Of a DNA stretch of 41,900 bases, positions 3,151 to 40,156 are shown piece by piece; the first letter of the stretch is position 1, and every line of letters begins with the position of its first letter. Origin of the DNA: Janthinobacterium sp. Its GTDB lineage: Bacteria > Pseudomonadota > Gammaproteobacteria > Burkholderiales > Burkholderiaceae_D. Location of the stretch: positions 1-41,900 of the forward strand of contig JANXSQ010000042.1 in the NCBI GenBank assembly GCA_025356595.1, in the 5' to 3' direction. Below the pieces are notes generated by a model. That model saw only the letters and a program-made list of their open reading frames with translations. It searched no databases and was not told where the DNA came from. A program made the translations under genes and the position numbers.

Positions 3151-3372
3151 TCACTTGAACGTGCGGCGCAGATTTCGCCCGAGATCGTCAAGCGATTTTT
3201 GGAGGGTTTGGATAACGGCGCGCAGCTTTGCCGCATCGACCGTAGTGACGCCCTTGCAGTGCGGGCAGGTGAGTTGCGGATCACGTTGCAGCCGTCCGAG
3301 CTTTTCCGCAATTTTCTTGCCGCAACTTTGGCAGTTGATTTCGATGGTCTCGCCACTGAAGTCTAGTTTCAT
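3151..3372 (-). CDS. Zinc-ribbon protein, opposite to the early operon
   Basis: This 73-aa protein has two CxxC knuckles (CQSCGKK and LTCPHCKG) separated by an Arg/Lys-rich strip, then an amphipathic helix (AKLRAVIQTLQKSLDDLGRN). It resembles small zinc-ribbon proteins common in beta-proteobacteria and their phages, with MKLDFSGETIEI followed by the first knuckle. Their function is unknown, but nucleic-acid or protein binding is likely. It reads leftward inside a rightward operon, so it should have its own promoter in 3373-3484 and would be antisense to PR transcripts. A plus-strand ORF covers the same DNA but is less protein-like. Confidence 0.72.
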   Translation of the reverse strand: MKLDFSGETIEINCQSCGKKIAEKLGRLQRDPQLTCPHCKGVTTVDAAKLRAVIQTLQKSLDDLGRNLRRTFK

Positions 3373-3484
3373 GGTGGTTTCTTTTCGTGAATGTGAATGT
3401 TATGTAACTGACACTGTAACGCATTGGAATCCCCACCCTTATTTTTGAAACCGTAATCCTGAATCACTTTGACAAGGAAAACCA

Positions 3485-3745
3485 ATGGATACCACCCGCA
3501 CCAAGCTTTTGAAATGCTACCTGCTCCCGGCCGAGGAAGAAACGATCCTGCGAGCCTGTGCCGCCGCCGGCGTCACGCGCAGCGACCAGGCCCGGGCCGA
3601 GATGCTGCACTGGGCGTCACGGCAGCGCCATGATAGGCGCCAGCCGATCCGCCACGAAGGGCCCAACGGCGCTTCGCGTAGGGCCCAGTTGCTGCCGTGC
3701 CGCCCGAGCTACGGCGTGGTGCCAAAAATGCGCATGCGGGTTTAA
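3485..3745 (+). CDS. Small protein with possible ribbon-helix-helix N-terminus
   Basis: The 86-aa product is preceded by AAGGA at good distance. Residues 8-45 (strand-like KCYLLPAEEETI, then two helices with GVTRSDQARAEML) resemble the N-terminal shape of relaxosome or CopG-type small DNA-binding proteins. The remainder is Arg-rich and low in complexity. The resemblance is weak, so I only propose a possible DNA-binding early protein. Confidence 0.5.
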   Translation: MDTTRTKLLKCYLLPAEEETILRACAAAGVTRSDQARAEMLHWASRQRHDRRQPIRHEGPNGASRRAQLLPCRPSYGVVPKMRMRV

Positions 3746-3827
3746 CGGAATAGAGGCGCAGCAATGTACGAGATCAGACCGATAGACCGGCCGGTGAGGC
3801 CGGCGCAGCAACAAAGCAGGGGGCTGG

Positions 3828-4034
3828 ATGAAAAAGCAAGTGGTAGCGACAGCGGAGGAGCAAGTCCTCCGCGCCGTGTGCGTTTGGCGCCTGAGCGACC
3901 GGGAGAAGTTGTCGGCGCCGGGCTTGCCGAGCGACCCGGCGCGGCTGGCGGTAGGGGCGCGCCACCACCGTAACACGAACAAGTTGCGCGAGGCCGCCGA
4001 CAACTACCTCGATGAGGCTGATCCCCCATCCTGA
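3828..4034 (+). CDS. Small hypothetical early protein
   Basis: The frame encodes 68 aa and is preceded by AGGGGG five bases before the ATG. It starts MKKQVVATAEEQVLRAV and ends with a plausible helix, NKLREAADNYLDEAD. No domain is recognised. An overlapping frame at 3764-3973 is a poorer candidate. Confidence 0.45.
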   Translation: MKKQVVATAEEQVLRAVCVWRLSDREKLSAPGLPSDPARLAVGARHHRNTNKLREAADNYLDEADPPS

Positions 4035-4112
4035 CGCGCAGATCCCCAGCAACTACAGCATCACACGACCGGCAACGGCCGATTTAACCCGTATCAACCG
4101 AAGGAGAGTGGC

Positions 4113-4394
4113 ATGTCAAACACACCCGAATCTCTGGCCACCTTGGGCGCGCTCTTCAACAGCGTGATCGCCGCGCATGGCCTGAAGAACGACGCCGGCC
4201 TGGCGCGCGCGTTGAAGGTGGCGCCGCCGGTGATCAGCAAGCAGCGGCACGGCCAGCTGTCTATCGGCGCCACGATGGTCTTGAATATACACATGACGTT
4301 TCATATCCCGGTGGCCGATATCTTGGCGGTAACGCGGGAACCAGCCTCCACCCATTGTCAATCGGGCGACGCCGTCAGAATGGCCGAGAAGTGA
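4113..4394 (+). CDS. Putative helix-turn-helix regulator
   Basis: The product is 93 aa with AGGAG seven bases upstream of the start. Residues 20-70 read like a Cro/C1-type fold: GLKNDAGLARALKVAPPVIS is a helix-turn-helix candidate, followed by KQRHGQLSIGA. Proteins of this type sit just before replication genes in many temperate phages and may regulate or replace a DnaA/DnaC-type loader. Its stop overlaps the GTG start of the primase-helicase by four bases, so the two are co-translated. Confidence 0.62.
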   Translation: MSNTPESLATLGALFNSVIAAHGLKNDAGLARALKVAPPVISKQRHGQLSIGATMVLNIHMTFHIPVADILAVTREPASTHCQSGDAVRMAEK

Positions 4395-6973
4395 CGCCGG
4401 CGACACTGTCAACGGCTGGCGTCGCGCTGTCCTTCGTCAGCCCGTGCGACCGGGACGTGTGGGTGCGCATGGGCATGGCGTTGAAGGCGGAGTTCGGCGA
4501 AGACGCGCGCGATGTCTGGCTGACCTGGAGCGCGGAGTATGACGGCTTCGATGCCGGCGCCGCTGCCTCGTCCTGGCGCTCGTTCAAGAACGGCGGCAAG
4601 ATCGGCATCGGTTCCCTGTTCGCCGCGGCGCAAGCCGAGGGCTTCAAGTTCGACCAGGCCGGGGTCGAGGTGTCGCCCGAGAAATTGGCGGCGGACCGCC
4701 TGGCCCGTACCGAGCGGGATGCAAAGGCGGAGGCCGACCGTCTGGCCCGTGCCGCCGCCGCCGGCGTACGCGCGCAGGCCCAGTGGCGCATGGCGGCGAA
4801 AACCGGCGAGTCGCCGTATTTGGCCGGCAAGCTGGTCGAGGCCGAGGCGTGCCGCTACACCGGCGCCGGTGGAATCATCGTGCCGTTCATGCGCTACGAT
4901 TTCGAGCCGGCGCGCATGGTGGGCAAGCAGGCCATCGACGCGGCTGGCGTCAAGAAAAACAGCGGGGGCATGGACAAGCTGGCCGCCGCATGCCGCCTGG
5001 GCGACGTGCCGCAGGACGGCGACGATATAGGCATCGGCGAGGGCTACGCAACCGGCCTGTCGGTGCGCATGGCCACCCAGCGCGCCTTCGCCTACTACAT
5101 GGCGATCGACGCCGGCAACCTGCCGCACGTCGCGCGCCTGCTGCGCGCCAAGTTTCCCTCCAGCCGCCTGCTTATCTTCGCTGACGACGATTACCTGACC
5201 GGCGGCGCCGGCGTGATCAAGGCCGAGCAGGCGGCGACCGCCGTCGGCAACGCCGTGGTGCTGGTGCCCGCCATCACGGCGCCGCGCCGGGCGACCAAAA
5301 AAGATGAGTCCCTGCCGAAGCTGACCGACTTCAACGACCTGCACGTGGCGCAGTCCCTGGCCGAGGTGACTGCGCAAATCGCCGCGGCGCTGGCTGCCCC
5401 TGCGGTTGATCGCGGCGCGCCCGTGCCGCATGATGACGGCGCCGCCGGCGAGCCGCCGATCCCCGCGCCCCTTGCCAGCGATGACCCGGTCGGCATAAAC
5501 ATTCCCACGGCTGAAGCGTTGATCGCGCATTTCTCGATCATTTATCCGACCACCGACATCTGGGACGGCCTGCGCAAGCAGCGCATGAAGCGCTCGGCCT
5601 TCAACGCCTGGGTCGGCAAGGATCTGGCGGCGGCGTGGGAGAAGGACGGCCGGCGCCGCACCATCCTGCGCGACAGCCTGCCGGTGCTGGTGGGAGGCCG
5701 CGCCATCCCGGGGGGCGCCGGGGGCGGTAAGCTGGGCGAAATGCTCGACAACATCACGCTGCTGCGCGGCACCGAGACGGTGTGGGATGCGATTGGGCAG
5801 CAGGTCATGACCCTGGGCGCCGTGCGCGCCGACTACACCGCTGACCTCACTTCGAAGTGGCAAGAGCACGCGCTGCGCAAAACGGTGGAGGCCAAGAACC
5901 TGGTGTTCGACCCGACCCAGCGCGCCGACCCTGTCACGCACGTCAACATCTTCCTGGGCTGGCCGCTGATACCGAAAGCGGACGCCGACCTGGTGCTGCC
6001 GATCCTCGCGCTCCTGGAGTCCCTGTGCGGCGCCGAGGACAACGTCGACGACTGCGTCGTCTGGATACTGCGCTGGCTGGCCTACCCACTGCAGAACCCG
6101 GGCGCCAAGATGCAAACCGCGCTGCTGATGTTCGGCGAGAAGCAGGGCACCGGCAAGAGCCTGTTTTTCCAGGACGTGATGGGTCCGATCTACGGCGACT
6201 ACGGCACCGTCGCCAGCCAGCATCAACTGGACTCGAGCTTCACGGCCTGGCGCTCCGCCAAGCTGTTCGTCCTATTCGAAGAGGTGCTGTCCCGCGAGGA
6301 CAAGTACAGCCACAACGGCACGCTCAAGTACATGATCACCGGCAAGTCGATGAGCATCAACCAGAAGAACCTGCCCGAGCGCACCGAGCAAAACCACCTG
6401 AACGCGGCGTTTCTGTCGAACGAGCCCCAGCCGATCCCGATCGAGCTGGAGGATCGCCGCTTCATGGTGATCGAGGCCAGGAACAAACAGCCGGAGGCGT
6501 TCTATAACGCCGTCACCGACTCCATCGCCCGCGGCGGCCTGGCCGCCTTCTACGACTTCCTGCTGGCGTTTCCGATGGACGGATTCAACGCCCACACGAA
6601 GCCGATGATGACCCTGGCCAAGGAGCGCGTGATCGAGTTCGGCCTGAACGGCTGGATGTCGTTCCACCGCTCGTGGAAGGACGGCTACCTGAGCGCGCCG
6701 TACTGCTCCTGCCTGTCCGAGGACCTGTACACGATTTACCGGCGCTGGTGCGACCGGTCCGGCGAGAAGCCGCTGACGCTGTGCAAGTTTGCCGGCCTGA
6801 TCGCCAGCCGCGAGCACAAGGTGAAGCGCTCGGTGGCGGTCGGCAGCAAGGGCAAGACCACGCGCATGATTTTCGAGGTCAAGCACGAAGGCGAGACGGA
6901 CACCGTGGACCAGCAGATCGAGCGCTTCCGCGACCTGGCCGACGTGCGCGGCGGTGGCGCCGTGCAGGGTTGA
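4391..6973 (+). CDS. Phage primase-helicase (PriCT_2, Toprim, DUF5906)
   Basis: The main replication protein (860 aa) starts with a PriCT_2-like region (about residues 8-75: SPCDRDVWVRMGMAL, then SSWRSFKNGGKIGIGSLF). A charged linker follows, then a Toprim domain (IGEGYATG near 215 and FADDD near 262) and a helicase with Walker A FGEKQGTGKS near 581. This fits one protein making primers and unwinding DNA. I chose GTG at 4391 because it overlaps the upstream stop as GTGA and the PriCT_2 pattern begins soon after. An upstream in-frame TTG at 4355 is less likely. A repeat cluster that looks like an origin begins at its last codons. Confidence 0.92.
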   Translation: MTPATLSTAGVALSFVSPCDRDVWVRMGMALKAEFGEDARDVWLTWSAEYDGFDAGAAASSWRSFKNGGKIGIGSLFAAAQAEGFKFDQAGVEVSPEKLAADRLARTERDAKAEADRLARAAAAGVRAQAQWRMAAKTGESPYLAGKLVEAEACRYTGAGGIIVPFMRYDFEPARMVGKQAIDAAGVKKNSGGMDKLAAACRLGDVPQDGDDIGIGEGYATGLSVRMATQRAFAYYMAIDAGNLPHVARLLRAKFPSSRLLIFADDDYLTGGAGVIKAEQAATAVGNAVVLVPAITAPRRATKKDESLPKLTDFNDLHVAQSLAEVTAQIAAALAAPAVDRGAPVPHDDGAAGEPPIPAPLASDDPVGINIPTAEALIAHFSIIYPTTDIWDGLRKQRMKRSAFNAWVGKDLAAAWEKDGRRRTILRDSLPVLVGGRAIPGGAGGGKLGEMLDNITLLRGTETVWDAIGQQVMTLGAVRADYTADLTSKWQEHALRKTVEAKNLVFDPTQRADPVTHVNIFLGWPLIPKADADLVLPILALLESLCGAEDNVDDCVVWILRWLAYPLQNPGAKMQTALLMFGEKQGTGKSLFFQDVMGPIYGDYGTVASQHQLDSSFTAWRSAKLFVLFEEVLSREDKYSHNGTLKYMITGKSMSINQKNLPERTEQNHLNAAFLSNEPQPIPIELEDRRFMVIEARNKQPEAFYNAVTDSIARGGLAAFYDFLLAFPMDGFNAHTKPMMTLAKERVIEFGLNGWMSFHRSWKDGYLSAPYCSCLSEDLYTIYRRWCDRSGEKPLTLCKFAGLIASREHKVKRSVAVGSKGKTTRMIFEVKHEGETDTVDQQIERFRDLADVRGGGAVQG

Positions 6974-36333: not shown

Positions 36334-36720
36334 CTAGTCTCTGACGATAATGCGTCCGTTCATTTCTTCATGCCCGGAACCGCAAAAGTTATCGCATAAA
36401 AAATCGTAGACGCCCGCCTTCTCGGGCGTGAGCCGCAGCCGGGTGGGCTTGCCCGGTGGCAGATCGACGCGCAGGTTCAAATCCGGCACCTTGAAGCCGT
36501 GCATAAAATCGAGCGCGGTGATCTCCAGCACCACCGGCGGGCCTGTCTTGAGCACGATTTCGTTCGGTGTGTACTTGAATCTTTGCGCCACGATCTTGAT
36601 CACTTTTTCCTTGTCCGCGCCTTTGTCGGCGCTTTTGACGGCGTCCTGGGCCGGGCCGAAGCCTCCACACAAACCGGCCAGCAGGCCGAGCAGCGCGATG
36701 CCACCACGTATGCGCCTCAT
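36334..36720 (-). CDS. Cupredoxin-like protein with CuA-type site
   Basis: The 128-aa exported protein starts with a basic, hydrophobic segment (MRRIRGGIALLGLLAGLCGG). The cupredoxin fold follows from about residue 38. The ligand set is H74, C109, C113, H117 and M120 (CDNFCGSGHEEM), which is the CuA pattern of cytochrome oxidase subunit II. It may be an electron-transfer or copper-handling protein. It is transcribed with the metallophosphoesterase, two bases apart, from the putative ECF promoter. Confidence 0.85.
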   Translation of the reverse strand: MRRIRGGIALLGLLAGLCGGFGPAQDAVKSADKGADKEKVIKIVAQRFKYTPNEIVLKTGPPVVLEITALDFMHGFKVPDLNLRVDLPPGKPTRLRLTPEKAGVYDFLCDNFCGSGHEEMNGRIIVRD

Positions 36721-36722
36721 GG

Positions 36723-37604
36723 TCACACCTTCAGCATGGGAAATTCGGTGATCCGATAGGCGCTGTTCCTGGCCTGCGCCTCGACTTCGCGAAATCCCAG
36801 ACCCTTTTCCGGCTGCGCGGGGTCCCAGGGCGGCGGCGTGCGTTTGTCTTGCGAACCGGGCGCCGGCAGGGGGAAGATCAGCGACGTGGCGGAATGGTGG
36901 GCGATATGGGCTGTCTGGTGGTGGTTTTCCTGGTGGATATGGCCATAGAACACCGTCACATTGGTGTAAGGCAGGAGCAGCTCGATGGCTTTCGCGCCGT
37001 CCCGCGTGGCCCAGTCCCACTTGGGCACCAGGTCGAACAGGGGACGGTGGGTGAACACGACGTTGGGCGCGTCCTTGGCCTGGCCGGCCAGGTCGGCCTG
37101 GAGCCAGGCCAGTTGCGCCTCGCCGATGCTGGCGCCCGGATCGGACACATTGTCGACCGTCACGAAATGCACGCCCTGATGGTCGAAGGAATAGTGGGTC
37201 GGGCCAAAGAACTCCTTGAAGGCGGCGCCGTTGTCGAGCGATGCGTCATGCTCGCCGGGGATGAAACGCAGATTCTTGACCTTCAGCTTGCCGACGATCT
37301 CACGAAACTCGGCCATGCGCTGGCGCCGCTCCTTGGGATCGTCGGTGGTGTGCGTCAGATCGCCGGTGAAGATGATGAAATCGGGCGCGATGTCGAGCGC
37401 GTTGACGGCCGCGACCGCCCGCTTCAAGGTGTGGGTCGCGTCCGGGTTGGCCGGTCCCGCATAGCCCCAGTGACTGTCCGACAACTGGACAAAGTAAAAG
37501 TCGGCGGCCGCGCCGGCTGCCCGCGTAAAACCCGGCAAACCGGCGAGGAAGACCGCGCCGCCGCCGGCCGCCCCGAGACGGATAAAATTTCTACGATTCA
37601 TCAT
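36723..37604 (-). CDS. Tat-exported metallophosphoesterase
   Basis: The calcineurin-like phosphoesterase has a twin-arginine signal (NRRNFIRLGAAGGGAVFLAG). Metal motifs are in order: LSDSHWG, FTGDLTHT, PGEHD (the GNHD position), FTHRPLFD and YGHIHQ. I chose the Met at 37604, which has GGGAG seven bases upstream. Earlier in-frame Mets at 37610 and 37631 are possible. It leads the operon with the cupredoxin gene and lies about 60 bp from the putative ECF promoter. Substrate unknown. Confidence 0.88.
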   Translation of the reverse strand: MMNRRNFIRLGAAGGGAVFLAGLPGFTRAAGAAADFYFVQLSDSHWGYAGPANPDATHTLKRAVAAVNALDIAPDFIIFTGDLTHTTDDPKERRQRMAEFREIVGKLKVKNLRFIPGEHDASLDNGAAFKEFFGPTHYSFDHQGVHFVTVDNVSDPGASIGEAQLAWLQADLAGQAKDAPNVVFTHRPLFDLVPKWDWATRDGAKAIELLLPYTNVTVFYGHIHQENHHQTAHIAHHSATSLIFPLPAPGSQDKRTPPPWDPAQPEKGLGFREVEAQARNSAYRITEFPMLKV

Positions 37605-37666: not shown

Positions 37667-37696
37667 TACCGCGCAGTGCGTGGAAATATTCCCGCT
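37667..37696 (-). promoter_or_regulatory. Putative ECF-sigma promoter of the metallophosphoesterase operon
   Basis: On the minus strand AGCGGGAATA is followed after 12 bases by GCGCGGTA. The same two blocks with the same spacing occur on the plus strand at 37935-37964 before the sigma gene. The predicted start near 37660 would give a leader of about 55 nt. Confidence 0.7.
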
Positions 37697-37934
37697 TCCC
37701 GCAGGGTTTCCCGGCGCGTCCTCAAGGGCTGGCGCTGGAGCTGGCGCCGGGACCGGCCAGCAACAGCGCGATGATAAGATGGGATTTCCTGCGGAGATGA
37801 GACATGGCGGACTCCCGGTTCGGTTCTGGGGTGGAACAGGCGGCAGGCGATCAATGTCGCGCGACGGCGTACCGTCTTCCCTGTACTACCGTGGTGTGCC
37901 GCCAAATATTCCACCTGGCCGAAAAAAATGCGCG

Positions 37935-37964
37935 AGCGGGAATAAACCGAGGGTCGGCGCGGTA
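37935..37964 (+). promoter_or_regulatory. Putative autoregulated ECF-sigma promoter
   Basis: AGCGGGAATA (37935-37944) and GCGCGGTA (37957-37964), 12 bases apart, match the divergent copy at 37696-37667 in all 18 block positions. It lies about 20 bases ahead of the sigma start codon, as expected for self-activation. Confidence 0.7.
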
Positions 37965-37985: not shown

Positions 37986-38531
37986 TTGACAGACAGGATC
38001 CCACCCCGAACCCGGCGCTTCGAGGCCGTCGTCGTGCCGCATCTCGACGCCGCCTACAATCTCGCGCGCTGGCTGATGCGCGACGAGCACACCGCACAGG
38101 ATGTCGTGCAGGAGGCGTACTTGCGGGCGTTTCGCTTCTTCGACAGCTTCCACGGCGAGCAGGCGCGCCCTTGGCTGCTGGGCATCGTGCGCAACACCTG
38201 CTATAGCTGGCTGAAAAGCCGCGGCCAGATGGGCGAGCAGTTCGAATTCGACGAGGAACGCGACAGCGACGCGGCCGCCCAGGTGGCGCCCGGCGATCCG
38301 CAGACGGTGCTGCTGCAAAAACTGGAGAAGGCGCGCATCGACCGGGCCATCGACGCCCTGCCCGTGCTGTTTCGCGAAGCCATCGTGCTGCGCGAACTGG
38401 AGGAATTGTCGTATGAAGAAATTGCCCAGGTGGCGGCGATCCCGCTGGGCACGGTGATGTCGCGCCTGGCGCGCGCGCGTGCCCTGTTGCGCAGCGCGCT
38501 GGGCCGGGCCGATCAAGAGGAATGGCAATGA
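37986..38531 (+). CDS. ECF RNA polymerase sigma factor
   Basis: The 181-aa sigma-70 family factor has region 2 (DAAYNLARWLMRDEHTAQDV, then VQEAYLRAFRFFDSF) and region 4 with its helix-turn-helix (ELSYEEIAQVAAIPLGTVMS). There is no region 1 or 3. The start is TTG at 37986 with AAGGA eight bases upstream. It is translationally coupled to the anti-sigma gene and preceded by a motif identical to that of the divergent operon. Confidence 0.92.
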   Translation: MTDRIPPRTRRFEAVVVPHLDAAYNLARWLMRDEHTAQDVVQEAYLRAFRFFDSFHGEQARPWLLGIVRNTCYSWLKSRGQMGEQFEFDEERDSDAAAQVAPGDPQTVLLQKLEKARIDRAIDALPVLFREAIVLRELEELSYEEIAQVAAIPLGTVMSRLARARALLRSALGRADQEEWQ

Positions 38532-39208
38532 AGCAACACGACGACGAGCAAGACTTGAGCGCGGCCATCAAGGCGCAAGCCACGCGCCACCGGGCCCCGC
38601 CCGGTTTGCGCGAGCGCATCCTGGCCGACCTGGCGCCGCCCGCCGCGCTGTCGGCTGCGCCCCTGCGCGCGCGCTGGCGCGACGCGCTGCGCATGCAATG
38701 GGCGCGCTTGGGCGCGGCCTTCGTCTGCGGCGCGCTGGTCGCGCTGGCGCTCGTCGCCGTGCGCCCGCCGTCCGGCCCCGCCAACCCGCTGGCGCAGGAA
38801 GTGGTGGCCGGCCACGTGCGCTCGCTGATGGTCGACCATCTGGAGGACGTGGCCTCGACTGACCAGCACACGGTGAAGCCCTGGTTCGCCGGCAAGCTCG
38901 ATTTTTCACCGCCCGTGCATGACCTGGCCAAGGACGGCTATCCCCTGATCGGCGGGCGCCTCGACTATCTTGATCACCGTCCCGTGGCGGCGCTGGTCTA
39001 CCGAAGCGACCGTCATACCATCAATGTGTTTGTCTGGCCGGCCGACGGTGCTGCGGCCGGGGGCATGGAAACGCTGTCCCGGCAAGGTTTTAATATCGTC
39101 GCATGGCGCGCCAACGGCATGCGCTTCTGGGCCGTCTCGGATCTCAATGCAGGGCAATTGCAGGCCTTTGCGCAAAAACTGCGCGCCAGCGCGGCGTCCT
39201 TTGAGTGA
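38528..39208 (+). CDS. Membrane anti-sigma factor
   Basis: The product is 226 aa. An N-terminal cytoplasmic helical domain (DLSAAIKAQATRHRAPPGLR) precedes one transmembrane helix (LGAAFVCGALVALALVAV, about residues 61-78). The periplasmic domain (about 80-226) includes TVKPWFAGKLDFSPPVHDLA. It would hold the sigma factor until an envelope or oxidative signal. The ATG at 38528 overlaps the sigma stop (ATGA) with GAGGA six bases upstream. A start six bases earlier is possible. Confidence 0.87.
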   Translation: MKQHDDEQDLSAAIKAQATRHRAPPGLRERILADLAPPAALSAAPLRARWRDALRMQWARLGAAFVCGALVALALVAVRPPSGPANPLAQEVVAGHVRSLMVDHLEDVASTDQHTVKPWFAGKLDFSPPVHDLAKDGYPLIGGRLDYLDHRPVAALVYRSDRHTINVFVWPADGAAAGGMETLSRQGFNIVAWRANGMRFWAVSDLNAGQLQAFAQKLRASAASFE

Positions 39209-39336: not shown

Positions 39337-39873
39337 TTATCGCCGCGGCCTTTTGCCACCGCTTCGGGTGATGGCGGCGAACACGCCGTCCTTGATGACT
39401 AGCGCATGCAACAGGCCGGCGCCTATGTGGATCAGTACTGTTACGAAGAACACTTGTCCGCCGACGCCATGCGCCCAGCGCAGCCAGGCGTACAAGGCGA
39501 CGTTTTGCGGCATGATCGCCGGCACATGCCAGGCGCCCACACCCGGCATTGGGTAAGCGGCGGCCGACTGCATGGCCCAACCCAGCAGCGGCATTCCCAG
39601 CATCAGCGCGTACAGCGCGTAATGCGACAGCGTGGACGCGCGCCGCTGCCAGCCCGGCATCGACGCCGGCAAGGGTGGCGCGCCACCGAGCCTGCGCAGG
39701 ACGAGGCGCAGAATCGCCAGTGCCAGCAGACAGATGCCGAGCGGCTTGTGCAGGGCGATCAGGCGCTCATGCCAGACCGAGACGGTGGCGACCATGCCGG
39801 CACCAGCCAGCAGTTGCATCATCAACAGTACCGCCATCAGCCAGTGCATTATGCGCGACGGCAGACCGAACAT
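39337..39873 (-). CDS. Cytochrome b561
   Basis: The diheme membrane cytochrome has four transmembrane helices. Likely heme ligands are in SRIMHWLMAV, WHERLIALHKPLG and VLIHIGAGLLHALVI. I prefer the ATG at 39873 (178 aa), which begins MFGLPSRIMHW as in the family. A TTG eight codons upstream is the alternative. It is convergent with the anti-sigma gene. Such cytochromes move electrons between quinol and periplasmic partners, which fits the nearby cupredoxin, but joint regulation is not shown. Confidence 0.87.
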   Translation of the reverse strand: MFGLPSRIMHWLMAVLLMMQLLAGAGMVATVSVWHERLIALHKPLGICLLALAILRLVLRRLGGAPPLPASMPGWQRRASTLSHYALYALMLGMPLLGWAMQSAAAYPMPGVGAWHVPAIMPQNVALYAWLRWAHGVGGQVFFVTVLIHIGAGLLHALVIKDGVFAAITRSGGKRPRR

Positions 39874-40156
39874 CGTGGTCGTGGTCGAAGGGGGCAACGG
39901 GGCGAAACGGGAGTGTCAGGAATTTTGTGTGCCCAAGCGAAGCCGGTTTGGCCGGTCTTTTCGACGCGCATGCAGAAACCGATGTCGTCTCCGGTCAGTC
40001 GCTCGACGTGCTGGATCCGCATCTGACGCTCACCTGCGTGGGCCTTGTGCGGCGAGGCGGTCGCCATCATTTCGGCGCCGGGCAGGTACAAGCGAAAAAC
40101 GAGCTGCCCGGCGCATCTGGCCGGCGGCGTCCGTCGAGGGGCGCCCGCCGGACCTC

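Follow-up and report, generated by a model that had tools for sequence, protein, structure and literature searches.

Gene content of the locus

The window, that is, the whole 41,900-nucleotide stretch of DNA analyzed here, is one complete contig (C26) of a 5.67-Mb Janthinobacterium sp. draft genome in 419 contigs. It carries a gene for an extracytoplasmic function (ECF) sigma factor followed by that of a putative anti-sigma factor and, on the opposite strand, a metallophosphoesterase (MPE) gene ahead of one for a CuA-like cupredoxin (Table 1). The sigma factor consists of region 2 (residues 18–80) and region 4 (residues 117–169) only, with no region 3 or 1.1 recognized by Pfam, and its best NCBIfam match, PRK12533, scores 222.9 bits, under the cut-off of 248. 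The putative anti-sigma factor has no Pfam match and matches an NCBIfam "anti-sigma factor" model weakly (6.5e-05, 23 bits versus a cut-off of 100); its hydrophobicity peaks at 2.25 over residues 60–78 (protein read from position 38528), and a homologue lies near the sigma gene at most related loci.

Table 1. Features of the locus, with positions in the window
Feature	Position	Strand	Basis or remarks
CuA-like cupredoxin, H...CxxxCxxxHxxM	36334..36720	-	Pfam Cupredoxin_1, COX2
Metallophosphoesterase (MPE)	36723..37604	-	Pfam Metallophos, 1.1e-10
Candidate ECF-type promoter, MPE–cupredoxin operon	37667..37696	-	GGAATA 37692-37687, CGGTA 37671-37667
27-codon ORF, signal-peptide-like	37722..37805	-	Similarity to the cytochrome c signal peptide of related locus L088
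Third, weaker core copy, GGAATA-N15-CGGTA	37887..37912	-	Synteny; profile score 14.6
Candidate ECF-type promoter, sigma/anti-sigma operon	37935..37964	+	GGAAT 37939-37943, CGGTA 37960-37964
ECF sigma factor, 181 aa	37986..38531	+	Pfam Sigma70_r2, Sigma70_r4_2, Sigma70_r4
Putative anti-sigma factor	38522..39208	+	Overlaps sigma gene; one hydrophobic segment

The N-terminus of the MPE reads by eye as twin-arginine-like (NRRNFIRLG). Calcineurin-like metallophosphoesterases are characterized by the motifs DxH, GDxxH, GNH[DE], H, and GHxH; the window protein holds DxH, GDxxH, H, and GHxH, with GNHD replaced by GEHD. The glutamate of GEHD is present in 78/78 MPE proteins, the window's own and remote ones from Sinorhizobium, Burkholderia, Streptomyces, and Mycobacteroides among them, and represents an atypical substitution in the metal site. 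The cupredoxin shares the H plus CxxxCxxxHxxM arrangement with the CuA domains of nitrous oxide reductase (NosZ) and cytochrome oxidase subunit II, and its NCBIfam matches to CoxB and NosZ fall under the respective cut-offs. All five predicted CuA ligands (H, C, C, H, and M) are present in the window protein. Unlike those CuA domains, however, the cupredoxin is a small, separate, and (predicted) exported protein without catalytic partners, and the first His is replaced by Met in 37 of the 69 cupredoxins that were compared. Cytochrome c genes occur at 17/31 loci with His versus 0/37 loci with Met (Fisher 6e-8, with the pattern clumped on the tree into few independent pairs; the count omits L156, which had no MPE match, and the remote plasmid loci L186–L189), a suggestive association between the His-to-Met change and the absence of cytochrome c.

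Two copies of a bipartite promoter-like element

The first-pass annotation had described an identical, divergently oriented pair of ECF promoters at this locus, and both copies are found where it placed them: the window contains two and only two occurrences of the pattern AGCGGGAATA-N12-GCGCGGTA, each with zero mismatches and a spacer of 12. Across 100 dinucleotide shuffles of the window, the same blocks at spacers of 10–14 gave 0 matches, and GGGAATA-N12..14-GCGCGGTA has 2 matches in the 5.67-Mb genome, both at the locus. The GGAAT of the plus-strand site lies 47 bases from the start codon of the 181-codon sigma gene, and the minus-strand site lies 88 bases 5' of the MPE gene, which is then followed by the cupredoxin gene. 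When the whole window was scanned with a profile trained on 87 sites from relatives and none from the window, the plus-strand site ranked first (27.5) and the minus-strand site second (23.2).

Conservation of the candidate promoter core in related loci

The comparison set comprised the window and 102 related loci, 22 of which were retrieved via the MPE and the remainder as the best 80 of at least 552 retrieved via the sigma factor; the MPE search of the family draw detected the gene in 23/145 genomes at E ≤ 1e-60, the window's own genome counted. The loci are partly dependent, with L075 and L146 coming from one organism and several others being near-duplicates. We inspected the 400 bases preceding each of 102 sigma and 73 MPE genes; because start codons were extrapolated from BLAST alignments, some of these regions may be misplaced.

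GGAAT-N16-CGGT is found 5' of 44/102 sigma and 45/73 MPE genes, whereas GGAAT and CGGT at any other spacing from 8 to 25 occur in at most 2 regions per class. Likewise, among the upstream regions containing GGGAATA, GGGAATA-N17-GT is present in 72/77 for sigma and 40/42 for MPE, with any spacing besides 17 seen in at most 8 regions per class, and the looser GGAAT-N18-GT is present in 80/102 sigma regions. The strict CGGT form is missing from 58/102 sigma regions, several collinear loci having nothing before the sigma gene, and from 28/73 MPE regions; cytochrome c genes lie upstream in 10 of these 28, and others of the 28 stay weak (for example, L077, L113, L122, and L152). The promoter pair, with its spacing unchanged, recurs before both genes in relatives that their records assign to several phyla.

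Alignment of 90 sites (87 from relatives and 3 from the window), restricted to strict-form sites that precede a sigma or MPE gene, yielded the consensus CGGGAATAAA-N12-(C/G)CGGTATGC. In this alignment the information content is 0.0 and 0.16 bits for the outer A and G of AGCGGGAATA and 0.10–0.36 bits for the GCG of GCGCGGTA; about five of the 18 matching positions are therefore probably coincidental. The identity over 18 block positions noted in the first-pass annotation is real, but these five or so letters are little conserved in relatives, and the conserved core is CGGGAATA-N15-CGGTA.

Across the window and the 102 loci, target promoters often carry TTT just after GGGAATA and autoregulatory ones A: the base following GGGAATA is A in 72/80 sigma promoters versus 29/73 MPE or cytochrome c promoters (Fisher 2e-11, kinship uncorrected). 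The window sites read AAC before the sigma gene and TTT before the MPE gene, so that, by sequence, the plus-strand site would be of the autoregulatory "AAA" type and the minus-strand site of the target "TTT" type. Just past the anti-sigma gene lies a cytochrome b561 gene (39337-39897, minus strand), whose upstream region contains no site of this type scoring above 5 with the profile trained on relatives; b561 had no match at E ≤ 1e-8 in the other 102 loci.

A third site and a probable cytochrome c remnant

The two sites of the first-pass annotation are both exact, but a third copy of the core, on the minus strand, had been overlooked (Table 1). It is placed between the sigma and MPE promoters and shares the orientation of the cytochrome c promoters in L088 and L092, two loci that group with the window by sigma factor and have three promoters in the same order, the middle one preceding a class I cytochrome c gene. 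Among 109 loci (the 102 related loci, the window, L182, L183, and L186–L189), 18 have a cytochrome c gene, 17 of which are preceded at 57–130 bases by a promoter-like site (GGAAT or GGGAT, N17–19, GT[ACT]); the exact register GGAAT-N18-GT is kept before 16 of the 18. The third site carries the target-type TTT after GGAATA and lies 107 bases from the start codon of a 27-codon ORF. The hydrophobic core of this ORF is similar to the L088 cytochrome c signal peptide at the DNA level over 26 aligned bases, an alignment equalled by 2/1000 shuffles and by 2/400 other pieces of the window, and at the protein level, where 9/5000 shuffles reach the score.

Because only a signal-peptide-like stub remains where some relatives have cytochrome c, we consider the third site to be probably a promoter orphaned by the loss of a cytochrome c gene, and the ORF a probable remnant of that gene. 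The assignment of the site rests on synteny, since its profile score lies among those of the best chance matches (14.6 versus 15.3 at position 1343 and 17.5 for a match with a wrong spacer). These scores would also suit a chance match at 37887-37912 next to an ORF unrelated to cytochrome c, as would the shortness of the DNA similarity, equalled elsewhere in the window, and the resemblance of signal peptides to one another. Such a coincidence is unlikely, though far from negligible: it would have to have produced a site in the right interval, in the orientation seen in L088 and L092, of the TTT type, and at a distance from the start codon similar to that in relatives, besides an ORF that matches the L088 signal peptide better than nearly all shuffles. 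A search for an L088-like cytochrome c elsewhere in the genome found none at E ≤ 1e-3, an empty result that proves little. On a Janthinobacterium lividum plasmid (L183, positions 3224-5543), the locus is apparently eroded: a short cytochrome c gene adjoins the cupredoxin gene, what by eye resembles an insertion sequence lies between the cytochrome c and sigma genes, and the MPE was not found.

A motif-only search with the strict form

The strict consensus GGGAATAAA-N13-CGGTAT was searched as DNA alone in 145 genomes of the family and 300 of the order. It gave 12 sites in 11/145 family genomes and 7 sites in 7/300 order genomes, one of them common to both draws, hence 18 distinct sites; the reversed pattern had 0 matches among the family genomes and 2 among those of the order. 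The strict form has no match in the window's own genome, where the sites diverge from it after GGGAATA or after CGGTA. Homologues of this sigma factor and/or MPE adjoin 16 of the 18 sites, of which 13 face into the sigma or the MPE gene; at L231 the gene faced is an MPE with just 38 percent identity. No gene of the system lies near the other two sites (L169 and L178), which count as misses. These results support the proposed tie between one ECF sigma factor and both an MPE and a CuA-like protein: the promoter pair keeps its spacing from locus to locus, and most blind sites fall at the gene set. At L168, L172, and L236, strict sites lie just 5' of the sigma gene and face the opposite way, towards another gene, possibly a further target in some relatives.

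We regard it as very probable, on this comparative evidence, that the neighbouring ECF sigma factor reads both 30-base sites and so drives its own operon and the MPE–cupredoxin operon. A reading in which the sites are genuine promoters but have another ECF sigma factor of this genome as their main reader, the neighbour being only one of several users, is improbable. Recognition does overlap among the ECF26 sigma factors of Sinorhizobium meliloti, as described in sections of PMC6180224 and PMC3511301, and searching with the window sigma factor finds three other, weaker homologues in the genome. However, these homologues are at most 36 percent identical to it, and the motif follows the gene set: a strict site lies at the system in 10/23 MPE-bearing family genomes, whereas any strict site at all is found in 1/122 genomes without the MPE.

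Size of the regulon

Looser forms of the motif were searched in the window's own genome against backwards controls. GGAATA-N14..18-CGGTA gave 6 sites versus 3 control matches, 3 versus 3 outside the locus, and at a spacer of 15 it has 4 sites in the genome, 3 of them at the locus. We judged the outside sites to be chance matches: the remaining spacer-15 site (C108:50422) adjoins a divergent gene and lies about 480 bases from the next start codon on its strand, the spacer-16 site lies 131 bases before a 176-codon ORF unrelated to the system, and no ORF was found downstream of the spacer-18 site. The same judgment applies to GGGAAT-N16-CGGT (6 matches versus 3 controls), whose 4 outside sites comprise 3 inside ORFs and 1 without a downstream ORF, and to SGGGAATA-N17-GTH (3 versus 6), whose single outside site has no recognizable target. 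A genome search allowing 3 mismatches was uninformative, because it returned 100 matches versus 149 in controls. None of the looser motif searches gave a convincing distant target in the window's own genome.

The "small regulon" of the first-pass annotation therefore holds as far as tested, with matches outside the locus numbering 1 versus 6, 4 versus 3, and 3 versus 3 controls. The motif, which that annotation put forward for finding the full regulon, serves as a signature across genomes; the genome search reveals no wider regulon here. With SGGGAATAAA-N15-GTH, 15 of 16 relatives yielded 28 sites in all, versus 11 control matches. Twelve sites of relatives lying away from the system were checked downstream, of which L207 precedes a second sigma copy and L215 precedes a Lipoprotein_15 gene; the other ten have no recognizable target downstream. 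The L215 site (G005:C83:32355, in a genome of the same genus) is a promoter-like GGGAATAAA-N15-GTC and is perhaps the target of another sigma factor.

Relationship to ECF26 and other known systems

The cross-species consensus of ECF26 promoters, -35 GGAATA and -10 GT, is given in a section of PMC6180224, and the promoters described here fit it. S. meliloti RpoE1 and RpoE4, which belong to ECF26, resemble the present system in this promoter type, in the tandem arrangement of sigma and (here putative) anti-sigma genes, and in a very small regulon of the sigma operon and a neighbouring cytochrome c/cupredoxin operon (PMC6180224 for the promoter and PMC3511301 for the rest), a striking parallel in layout. 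RpoE4 controls itself and a sulfite oxidase–cytochrome c–pseudoazurin operon and probably responds to intracellular sulfite, according to a section of PMC3511301. The enzyme differs, however, being an MPE here and a sulfite dehydrogenase (sorT) there, as does the -10 element, CGGTA here versus CGTC there. Similarly, the ECF gene of Starkeya novella SigE adjoins a periplasmic redox operon (sorAB) with -35 GGAAT and -10 CGTC, but SigE did not activate its own promoter and its target is a sulfite oxidase; a passage of the same paper states that the consensus is not found upstream of its own set of beta-proteobacterial (group 3) sulfite-oxidase genes (PMC6527743).

The window sigma factor belongs to a well-supported group of 14 (100/99) together with betaproteobacterial metagenome-assembled genomes, Rhodoferax, Oryzomicrobium, and others, apart from the tree group that holds the same-genus genome G005; horizontal acquisition of this sigma factor is likely but unproven. 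S. meliloti RpoE6, the only ECF26 member compared, was identified by its place on pSymA and a divergent gene read by eye as a serine protease; it is 35 percent identical to the window sigma factor and falls outside its group, on a very long branch (5.06) of unsure placement. Anti-sigma factors diverge fast. The putative anti-sigma factor of the window has no tblastn match (E ≤ 1e-3) in the 45-kb pSymA stretch with the RpoE6 partner, a single comparison between fast-diverging proteins. Filing the sigma factor as ECF26 was considered, the promoter being a fit, but the sequence comparisons speak clearly neither for nor against it; by analogy, we say that it would work like an ECF26 regulator and leave membership in ECF26 unclaimed.

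The fit to a mapped ECF26 promoter class (PMC6180224) also bears on whether the blocks might be transcription-factor operators instead of -35 and -10 elements. Operators, too, typically show two-block sites in divergent orientation, but the blocks here are asymmetric, the spacer is rigid at 16 bases, 32 of the 44 strict sites lie 20–61 bases from the (extrapolated) sigma start codon, and the only other regulator-like cluster recognized, a LysR-like one, is present at 9/105 loci, so that operators appear very unlikely. Recent local duplication with one functional copy would explain the roughly five identical letters not conserved in relatives but merits hardly any credence, as many relatives have the motif at each of the two places with unrelated spacers, and the base after GGGAATA is class-specific (A in 72/80 sigma versus 29/73 target promoters).

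Proposed regulation and implications

The sites, their uniqueness, the conservation of their spacing and place, and their association with the gene set emerge directly from the computational comparison. Beyond these, we infer that the sites are active as promoters, which sigma factor reads them, what signal is sensed, and what the anti-sigma protein and the products do, as follows. RNA polymerase with the sigma factor encoded at 37986 would read both 30-base sites. An envelope signal would inactivate the presumed membrane-bound anti-sigma factor and free the sigma factor, which would then transcribe its own operon from the plus-strand site, in positive autoregulation, and the MPE–cupredoxin operon from the minus-strand site; a promoter common to the sigma factor's own operon and a target operon is what would be expected of an ECF sigma factor and is present here in sequence. 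The third target in some relatives, between these two, would be the class I cytochrome c gene, the coding body of which appears to be gone here, leaving its promoter and a signal-peptide stub. The exported products probably form a small set of periplasmic hydrolase and electron carriers.

Remote MPE genes are found near soxYZ on an S. meliloti plasmid and, on a mycobacterial plasmid, beside genes for an Oxidored_molyb enzyme (sulfite oxidase family), a Rieske protein, a cupredoxin, and a sigma factor; in view of these neighbours, a redox role related to sulfur is worth considering. The remote Burkholderia vietnamiensis MPE has no soxYZ- or sulfite-oxidase-type neighbours, and the Streptomyces one has a cupredoxin only. 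For Paraburkholderia phymatum, a table of PMC5748707 places a protein labelled metallophosphoesterase (Bphy_6550) among sulfonate/taurine transport genes upregulated in nodules. No description of an ECF–MPE–cupredoxin regulon was recognized in the literature searched, Staron 2009 and Casas-Pastor 2021 lying outside that search; term searches of PMC8103513 and PMC7406223 gave nothing of use.

As a speculative reading, to which we assign only a low probability, the sigma factor may control an undescribed, widespread periplasmic module of a metallophosphoesterase whose metal site is altered by the invariant GEHD, a CuA carrier, and a cytochrome c; its substrate may be a sulfur oxyanion or some related reactive species instead of an ordinary phosphoester, and the window may capture such a module losing its cytochrome while keeping the promoter. 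The orphan promoter, if real, illustrates how a regulon of this kind loses a member. More generally, CGGGAATA-N15-CGGTA, or the looser GGGAATA-N17-GT, provides a DNA signature for the ECF regulon that has been tried on whole genomes; it ties one regulator to a conserved set of (predicted) exported proteins of unknown purpose and makes the regulon question testable in isolates carrying the locus.
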